Part shown: piece by piece, positions 11,197 to 58,715 of the stretch | Numbering within the stretch: the stretch's first letter is position 1 | How the letters are laid out: each line of letters begins with the position of its first letter | NCBI RefSeq assembly: GCF_027359375.1 | Contig: NZ_CP114779.1 | Coordinates: 682,001-746,000, forward strand | Reading direction: 5' to 3' | From: Prochlorococcus marinus str. MIT 0919 | GTDB lineage: Bacteria; Cyanobacteriota; Cyanobacteriia; PCC-6307; Cyanobiaceae | Length of the DNA: 64,000 bases | Notes under the pieces: model-generated | Told to the model about the DNA's origin: nothing | Database searches by the model: none | What the model saw: the letters and a program-made list of their open reading frames with translations, nothing else | Translations under genes and position numbers: made by a program

Positions 11197-11592
11197 TTGC
11201 CAATAATACTGATTTCATTACTCATATTTTCTATACCTACAATTTCAAATGCTTCACCAGGTGGGCGCATTGGAGGTGGTAGTTTCAGCTCCTCCCCAAG
11301 CAATAAAATTTATACTGGCAACCTCAAAACCAAGGAAAACACTGACGTCAGAAGAGCGTATTCTTTCTTATCGGAACTTAAAACATTTGCAAAACCTCTT
11401 TATTTAATCTCGAATTTTAAAATCTTCACAATTTCTTCCGCTAAAAACTCGCAATATCTCGCAAATGAGGGCTTCAACACAATTAAATTGTATGTACTTT
11501 GTTTTTCCCTAGGTGTCACCTTCCTCTCAACCAGAGCCTCGCTCAATGAAGTGGGAGCGCAATGGAGAATTAGCTCAAAGAGATCTATCTGA
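11197..11592 (+). pseudogene. Probable remnant of a DUF1517-type exported protein gene
   Basis: An open frame with a TTG start encodes a signal-like hydrophobic segment followed by ASPGGRIGGGSFSSSPS. That resembles the N-terminus of cyanobacterial DUF1517 proteins, which normally run on for about 300 residues through a glycine/tyrosine-rich stretch and a membrane helix. Here the downstream 90 residues match nothing I recognise and stop early, and another small frame overlaps the end. I read it as a truncated and decayed copy. It could instead be a short lineage-specific secreted protein. Confidence 0.35.
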
Positions 11593-11680
11593 ACTTGTAA
11601 ATCGATTACTGGATGTAGAGTCATCGACAAATAGCAATGAACTTTCTTGGCTAGGTGCCAAATGTGACGAAGAAGAATAA
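11513..11680 (+). CDS. Small KW-x-x-N-G-E-L protein
   Basis: 55 residues from GTG 11513 (or 44 from ATG 11546), overlapping the DUF1517 remnant in another frame. The segment SMKWERNGELAQRDLSEL resembles the KW-x-N-D-G-E-L segment in the C-terminus of the gene at 13690 and in the small gene at 58539. The rest is acidic and polar, ending in CDEEE. No ribosome-binding site is obvious for either start, and the existence of the gene rests on the motif and the open frame. Function unknown. Confidence 0.4.
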   Translation: MSPSSQPEPRSMKWERNGELAQRDLSELVNRLLDVESSTNSNELSWLGAKCDEEE

Positions 11681-11749: not shown

Positions 11750-11902
11750 ATGATTAGAAGGTCAGTGAGCTGGATTAACACTCCCGTGATAATGGAAGCA
11801 ATGCATAGATATGAGGAGAACCGACTTCCTCGTTCAATGAGACTTTGGCTTGAGAAGCTGCTTGAAATAAAGCCTAACGAAAACTCAAGTCTTCTTAATT
11901 AG
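11750..11902 (+). CDS. Hypothetical 50-residue basic protein
   Basis: ATG-started frame MIRRSVSWINTPVIMEA... of 50 residues, rich in Arg, Met and Trp, ending 13 bases before the larB stop on the other strand. The composition (RYEENRLPRSMRLWLEKLLEIKP) looks like a folded amphipathic helical peptide and not random sequence, which is why I list it. I recognise no family. Confidence 0.45.
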   Translation: MIRRSVSWINTPVIMEAMHRYEENRLPRSMRLWLEKLLEIKPNENSSLLN

Positions 11903-13689: not shown

Positions 13690-14016
13690 TTACGCAACCT
13701 CTTCATTTAATTCACATTGAGTTAATTCATTTTCTGAAAGCAAGCTAAGAACTCTTGCTTTATCAATGGAAGAAAGCTCACCGTCATTATTCCATTTAAG
13801 AGTTGTTTTACGTTGGGCAGCAACGACTTTTTTTCTACAAGGTTCAATAAACAACTTTGATTCTATATTTCTCAGCTCATATTTCGCAGAATGTAAGTCT
13901 CGTGAATAAATACATGTATCTGCAGAGCAAGATTGAAAAATCCTTTTATTGCCTTTATGCAAACAAGTAATAGAGCCACCTTTAGGGCTTATATAAATGG
14001 GTGTAATTTCAATCAT
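13690..14016 (-). CDS. Small protein with C-terminal KW-N-N-D-G-E-L motif
   Basis: 108 residues. The N-terminal part holds four cysteines (CLHKGNKRIFQSC, ADTCIY, EPCRKK); the C-terminal 40 residues (QRKTTLKWNNDGELSSIDKA...) are closely similar to the whole C-terminal half of the 58-residue gene at 58539. The central KWNNDGELSSID has the spacing of an EF-hand loop but a Lys in the first ligand position. It is the second gene of a two-gene unit: its ATG lies inside the end of the twin-CX3C gene, so translation is probably coupled. No function can be assigned. Confidence 0.75.
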   Translation of the reverse strand: MIEITPIYISPKGGSITCLHKGNKRIFQSCSADTCIYSRDLHSAKYELRNIESKLFIEPCRKKVVAAQRKTTLKWNNDGELSSIDKARVLSLLSENELTQCELNEEVA

Positions 14017-14167
14017 CTTCTACATCCTCCTTTAAATGAATTGCAACACATTCAGTAATGCATTCAATGCCTTCACCAACTAAAGAACAGTTAGTAATGC
14101 ATTCAAAATAAGAGTCAATTGTTTCCAAGGACAAGATTGATGAATTCTTTTCCTTTATTTTCTGCAT
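14009..14167 (-). CDS. Twin CX3C mini-protein, 52 residues
   Basis: Starts MQKIKEKNSS and holds two near-identical segments, ECITNC and ECITEC, spaced by eight residues. The pattern C-x3-C-x8-C-x3-C would make an antiparallel helical hairpin pinned by two disulfides or a metal site. At DNA level TGAATGCATTACT occurs twice. The stop codon overlaps the next ATG by 8 bases. Too short to be found by routine length cut-offs. I recall similar cysteine-paired mini-proteins in picocyanobacteria but no function. Confidence 0.65.
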   Translation of the reverse strand: MQKIKEKNSSILSLETIDSYFECITNCSLVGEGIECITECVAIHLKEDVEDD

Positions 14168-58227: not shown

Positions 58228-58479
58228 TTAATATCTATATCTTTTCAACACTTTTGCAGGCTTCTCATCTAAATGATCCTCAAAAAGCAACCATTGCCTT
58301 GTTTCAAGATCATGGTCGCAGCCAAATTTCTCATCCTGAGCAAAGCTGATTTTGAGGTCAGAGTGACACCGTTGGTCAGCCTCAAATGCCGATAAAAATT
58401 TAGGAGAAAAATATAAGACCCCCACGAGAACAGCAGTGAAAAATAAAGTTGCTATTGAAACTATGGCAGCAACTTTCAT
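58228..58479 (-). CDS. Hypothetical membrane-anchored small protein
   Basis: 83 residues: N-terminal helix (about 4-26), then a polar domain with two Cys (DQRCHSDLK and FGCDHDLETRQW). ATG start. Possibly anchored with its domain outside the cytosol. No family recognised. The neighbouring gene upstream on the same strand is the small KW-G-N-D-G-E-L protein. Confidence 0.55.
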   Translation of the reverse strand: MKVAAIVSIATLFFTAVLVGVLYFSPKFLSAFEADQRCHSDLKISFAQDEKFGCDHDLETRQWLLFEDHLDEKPAKVLKRYRY

Positions 58480-58538: not shown

Positions 58539-58715
58539 TCAATTGTCCAAATTACACGTCAAATCACATCCTAATAGCTCACTCTTCTCAAGCTTTTCAA
58601 GAATTCTTGCCATATCTACGGCTGATAATTCTCCATCATTTCCCCACTTCAGAGTTGTTTTCCTCTGAATCGACGATTTACCACTCTCAGGACTTTTCTT
58701 CTCTTGAGGAACCAT
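58539..58715 (-). CDS. Small KW-G-N-D-G-E-L protein, 58 residues
   Basis: ATG-started: MVPQEKKSPES, then QRKTTLKWGNDGELSAVDMA and a helix ending ELLGCDLTC. The last 40 residues closely match the C-terminus of the 108-residue protein at 13690 (QRKTTLKW identical, NDGELS identical, same spacing). This is strong evidence that both are real and related. It is missing the cysteine-bearing N-terminal part of the longer one. Function unknown. Confidence 0.7.
   Translation of the reverse strand: MVPQEKKSPESGKSSIQRKTTLKWGNDGELSAVDMARILEKLEKSELLGCDLTCNLDN

Follow-up and report, generated by a model that had tools for sequence, protein, structure and literature searches.

Few photosynthetic cells are as abundant as those of Prochlorococcus and Synechococcus, and to our knowledge few of their regulators are known. 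CP12 regulates GAPDH/PRK in cyanobacteria; another small cyanobacterial protein, NsiR6, was later named NblD. CP12 is a small Cys-pair regulator of picocyanobacteria that is carried by their phages too (PMC7760959), and NsiR6 contains four conserved Cys, for which a redox or metal function has been proposed (PMC5126843). The proteins described here form an uncatalogued picocyanobacterial microprotein family made of three small modules, named X, N and C. X resembles NsiR6 in being a small cyanobacterial protein in which four Cys are conserved; however, by description NsiR6 has a CPVC pair, whereas the pairs of X are two CX3C motifs, and the sequences differ.

Three genes carry the C-module in the window, i.e. 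the whole stretch of 64,000 nucleotides that was analysed (positions 682001-746000 of the single contig of Prochlorococcus marinus str. MIT 0919, 1,716,770 bases). Their coordinates and lengths had been given correctly by the original prediction, and the strands (minus, minus and plus for the 108-, 58- and 55-aa proteins) are added in Table 1. The three proteins have in common the pattern KW-x-x-[DN]-G-E-L-x-x-x-D, and the six-frame translation of the window contains KWxx[DN]GEL 3 times, versus 0.0 expected from 100 first-order Markov simulations. The segment shared by the two closest copies, QRKTTLKW..NDGELS..D..R(V/I)L..L..(E)L..C.L, is real, with 59% identity over 39 aa between the 58-aa and the 108-aa proteins (E=3.5e-10); searching the whole contig with the 108-aa protein returned only itself and the 58-aa gene. 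The fusion of a cysteine-bearing N-terminal part to one member is borne out as well, this member being the 108-aa N-C protein. As for the weaker match proposed in the third gene, profile comparisons indicate that the 55-aa protein is a true distant homolog, because hhalign of the main group (A1) with the third group (A2) gives 90% probability (P=1.7e-6, 26 columns) and the profile searches agree in both directions: profile A1, built without the third copy, recovers third-group orthologs in relatives at E ~3e-4, and the reverse profile A2 recovers C-only and N-C members at E 5e-4 to 7e-3.

Table 1. Features of the X, N and C genes in the window (window coordinates).
Feature	Position	Strand	Basis
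X, 52-aa twin-CX3C peptide, 8-nt overlap with the downstream N-C gene	14009..14167	minus	upstream of 24/26 N-C loci
AAAGGAGG, strong Shine-Dalgarno inside the 3' end of X, 9 nt ahead of the N-C start codon	14026..14033	minus	read from sequence
N-C protein, 108 aa: Cys-bearing N-domain and KW..DGEL C-module	13690..14016	minus	ORF, homologs, purifying selection
N-domain, residues 1-56 of N-C; Cys18, Cys30, Cys35	13849..14016	minus	AlphaFold2 model
C-module, residues 67-103 of N-C, QRKTTLKWNNDGELSSIDKARVLSLLSENELTQCE	13708..13818	minus	alignments
EF-hand-like 12-residue stretch of N-C, K74-W-N-N-D-G-E-L-S-S-I-D85	13762..13797	minus	per-position counts, 137 distinct modules
C-only protein, 58 aa: C-module and C-terminal CX3C (CDLTC)	58539..58715	minus	ORF, syntenic orthologs
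Distant third copy, 55 aa, MKWERNGELAQRDLSELVNRLL, GTG start	11513..11680	plus	reciprocal profiles

None of the window proteins has a Pfam match above the curated cut-off, and no family was found when NCBIfam and Pfam were searched with consensus or relative sequences, several queries being composed consensus sequences and one query with an artificial N-terminus being left out of the evidence. Pfam was also run on every member of alignments A3 and A4; the Dockerin_1 matches in A3 are described below. CP12 was considered and rejected as a family assignment, no CP12 family appearing in these scans. A PDB sequence search with two profiles, including that of X, gave no match, and full-text literature searches, sequence words included, returned nothing relevant and no paper on these genes.

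The family is nevertheless widespread, and Pfam and NCBIfam thus miss a common group of proteins of about 50 aa. The profile search of picocyanobacterial genomes suggested by the original prediction found many short proteins carrying the module, with copies in syntenic positions: of the 251 Cyanobiaceae genomes sampled, 201 contain relatives of the 58-aa protein and its C-module, 183 contain third-group relatives and 72 contain the N-domain. Further divergent C copies occur in Synechococcus genomes, as in G130, with seven matches at E<=1. In a class-wide cyanobacterial sample the C-module profile matched 37 of 291 genomes. All but one belong to the Cyanobiaceae (36), and there was no clear match outside this family; the only other hit (G386, E=0.006) is marginal and partial, and was judged to be due to chance. 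Among the sampled cyanobacteria the C-module is therefore restricted to picocyanobacteria. Median dN/dS values of 0.09 for the third group, 0.23 for the N-C group and 0.22 for the C-only group, computed for these three C-module groups with synonymous sites saturated in many of the pairs, indicate that all three window proteins are under purifying selection. The third gene has the same flanking genes in 30/30 loci read and the orthologs of the 58-aa gene are syntenic in relatives. Thus, given the wide distribution, the constraint and the kept neighbors, each of the three copies represents an old orthologous group of its own, found throughout the Cyanobiaceae, and none is a recent local duplicate; the lineage-specific expansion that had been proposed from their presence in the window does not hold; neither of the outcomes that would have spoken against a protein family, a lack of homologs outside the strain or of protein-level constraint, was observed.

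Two other small ORFs were seen beside these genes: an 83-aa, membrane-anchored-looking protein with two Cys (window 58228-58479, minus strand) adjoins the C-only gene and is kept in 19 loci, and a 50-aa ORF lacking a Pfam match (window 11750-11902, plus strand) adjoins the third copy and is kept in 26/30 loci.

The C-module is built on a small set of fixed residues. Counted over 137 distinct modules, the first loop position holds Lys in 135 and His in 2, and W at position 2, G at position 6, L at position 8 and D at position 12 are invariant in 137/137; position 5 is mostly D/N, position 3 is unconserved and the flanks vary around the invariant K/H-W, G, L and D. Many modules also bear a C-terminal CX3C. 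In the AlphaFold2 model of N-C the module is a turn followed by a helix (residues 83-94), predicted with lower confidence than the N-domain. The original prediction had compared this stretch to an EF-hand loop with Lys at the first ligand position; the spacing and the Lys (135/137) stood, but a canonical Ca2+ EF-hand was rejected, since the oxygen ligand at position 1 is absent from all 137 modules. As judged from the residues, canonical Ca2+ binding by the C-module is unlikely, because position 1 has no oxygen ligand and position 3 is not conserved.

A broader version of this idea is that the C-module represents a degenerate EF-hand/dockerin-like Ca2+ loop with its exit helix, used as a Ca2+ sensor or as an attachment module. 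Indeed, loop spacing and exit helix resemble half a dockerin, with D/N at position 5, G at 6, a hydrophobic residue at 8, S/T/A at 9 and D at 12, and a C-only ortholog (L237) exceeds the Pfam Dockerin_1 gathering score (26.8 vs 22.9 bits); since this ortholog passes the cut-off, the dockerin resemblance is real. However, membership fails for the window proteins, which do not match dockerin type I (PF00404), and just 2 of the 30 members of alignment A3 match Dockerin_1, one of them above the cut-off. Moreover, each protein has one loop-helix, whereas dockerin type I calls for two repeated segments; the C-module proteins are cytosolic-looking microproteins in which no secretion signal was noticed, their first ligand is Lys/His and not an oxygen donor, and the S-x-x-D residues could just as well be an ordinary helix N-capping box. 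Taken together, a Ca2+ or dockerin-type role appears very improbable.

In the window, X and the 108-aa gene overlap as a two-gene cassette in which X comes first. The original prediction had missed this arrangement, as it had the N-X fusions and the copies in phages described below. X has two CX3C pairs whose four Cys are all invariant in the family alignment; its model is a helical hairpin (10-30/34-49, mean pLDDT 71) with the four Cys on facing helices. The X family is present in 166/167 near-complete Cyanobiaceae genomes, and in Synechococcus it is single-copy, in a fixed place and without C, beside genes that we take from their sequences to be of the ABC-F and HtrA types. Two more X paralogs occur in the same genome (G000:C1:782329-782454, minus strand, and G000:C1:41274-41387, plus strand), with no C-module nearby in the stretches read. 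The N-domain is modeled with high confidence by AlphaFold2 (pLDDT ~90) as four strands and one helix (beta4-alpha), but its Cys set varies, Cys30 alone being invariant in alignment A6. In the fold searches, which bear on the N-domain and X and barely cover the C-module, X gave no structural match and the best N-domain matches (PDB Z 6.2, Foldseek E >0.6) were not meaningful.

These Cys could point to metallochaperone or metal-storage microproteins, in which X would provide a four-Cys Cu(I)/Zn(II) site on its helical hairpin and N-C would carry or receive the metal. The facing position of the four invariant Cys of X in the model agrees with this reading, as do the extra Cys of N and the C-terminal CX3C of many C modules. 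Conversely, paired Cys are missing from the third group and from most C copies of phages, the neighbors seen include no metal transport or metalloenzyme genes, and the unfixed Cys set of N, with its one invariant Cys, argues against one strict metal site; a dedicated metal function is thus considered unlikely.

The three modules recur in several combinations. X lies upstream of N-C in 24/26 loci and of a C-only gene in 19 of 54, the latter mostly in high-light-type Prochlorococcus, while N-only genes are found directly downstream of X in five loci (L289, L292, L293, L294, L295); N and X are also fused in one reading frame in L300 (2615-3091, minus strand), L301 (2664-3266, minus strand) and L302 (1192-1698, plus strand). 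Most C-only genes, including those at 58539 and 11513 in the window, have no X neighbor. Since recurrent neighboring is accompanied by two fusion types, N-C and N-X, the modules probably work together; adjacency and fusion suggest a functional linkage and not necessarily a physical complex. Alternatively, X, N and C could be unlinked small proteins, adjacent by chance, with the C-module as a general folding motif devoid of a shared role. Compact genomes and the varying neighbors of C-only genes would be compatible with such an explanation; however, the recurrence of X+N-C, X+C and X+N, the N-C and N-X fusions and the invariant K/H-W-G-L-D are hard to obtain by chance, making it hardly probable.

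C is also encoded by viruses. Scanning viral contigs with phage-type query sequences identified it on 33 marine viral contigs, the viral status of the IMG/VR contigs being judged from the phage genes that they carry. In 18 of them C is beside gp32/gp33/phoH/gp53, neighbors that were identified by PHROGs, and in 14/33 it is beside psbA/ferredoxin/major head genes. The viruses include an isolate, P-SSM7, where PSSM7_229 (L257 3926-4201; profile E=6e-11) has a carbamoyltransferase on one side and the major head gene on the other, with psbA and ferredoxin close by. Since phage C copies are mostly alone, C must have a role that does not require X or N. In phage NATL2A-133, CYPG_00065 (57 aa; L310 5627-5800, minus strand) is related to the N-domain (profile E=9e-5 in a set of 14 proteins); the best fold match of the N-domain in BFVD, a 57-aa protein of this phage, is taken to be the same protein. 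The tblastn search of phages with composed N consensus sequences gave chance matches only. A host protein (L295 5922-6116) is similar to CYPG_00065. X-like twin-CX3C peptides ending in CITSCR.LL are encoded on three viral contigs (L343, L344, L345), and X has a weak match to phrog_665 (19/22 members, best E 1e-4).

An overlapping cassette of two small proteins, several copies per genome and the existence of phage copies could also point to a toxin-antitoxin-like system or an immunity pair, formed by X with its downstream partner and disseminated by phages and islands; the patchy distribution of the N-domain (72/251 genomes) and the differing genes that flank N-C loci would be expected in this case. 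However, X is near-universal and, in Synechococcus, occupies a fixed single-copy place without C, the C-only genes and those of the third group keep stable, syntenic positions, and the phage C genes hold fixed core positions; no toxin or antitoxin family was matched in the Pfam and NCBIfam scans. A pair of this type is thus quite improbable.

The reading that we tentatively prefer, while giving it somewhat less than even chances, is that C docks a common host partner, with X and N as the Cys-bearing partners of C, and that phages carry C to reach the same host protein. The C-module, 25-40 residues long, would have little room for a core by itself and may fold upon docking one conserved host protein. 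X, N and C together would probably form a small cytosolic complex, whose cysteines may sense the redox state or hold a metal; against this step, the twin-CX3C pairs might form only structural disulfides, and the varying Cys of N speak against one strict metal site. The variable tails of the C paralogs could tune the effect, and T4-like cyanophages would use their C-only copies on the same host partner during infection. A bolder version, unlikely as a whole, is a picocyanobacteria-specific mix-and-match regulatory cassette with X as redox/metal sensor, N as adaptor and C as docking segment. Cyanophages of both the T4-like and the T7-like type would have taken up C, and perhaps N and X, and would use it during infection to control the host target of the cassette, so that a second system would exist alongside CP12. 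An unnamed, conserved microprotein family that most picocyanobacterial genomes contain, and that phages place beside psbA/ferredoxin or in the gp32 core region, is a candidate for both host regulation and host takeover.

Among known proteins, the small Tim/CHCH proteins resemble X in having two paired-Cys motifs on two antiparallel helices, as seen for X in its model. However, small Tims have 11 or more residues between the Cys pairs, whereas the pairs are 8 residues apart in the window X, which also has no PDB sequence match; the likeness is at most a convergent geometry. CP12, a small Cys-pair regulator that is also phage-carried, is the closest functional precedent. Like CP12, the proteins of the window family are short, Cys-bearing, conserved in picocyanobacteria and carried by phages; unlike CP12, they have KW..DGEL as their invariant core and consist of three separable modules. 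The family can be counted among the host microproteins shared with phages, its unusual feature being the modular three-part arrangement.
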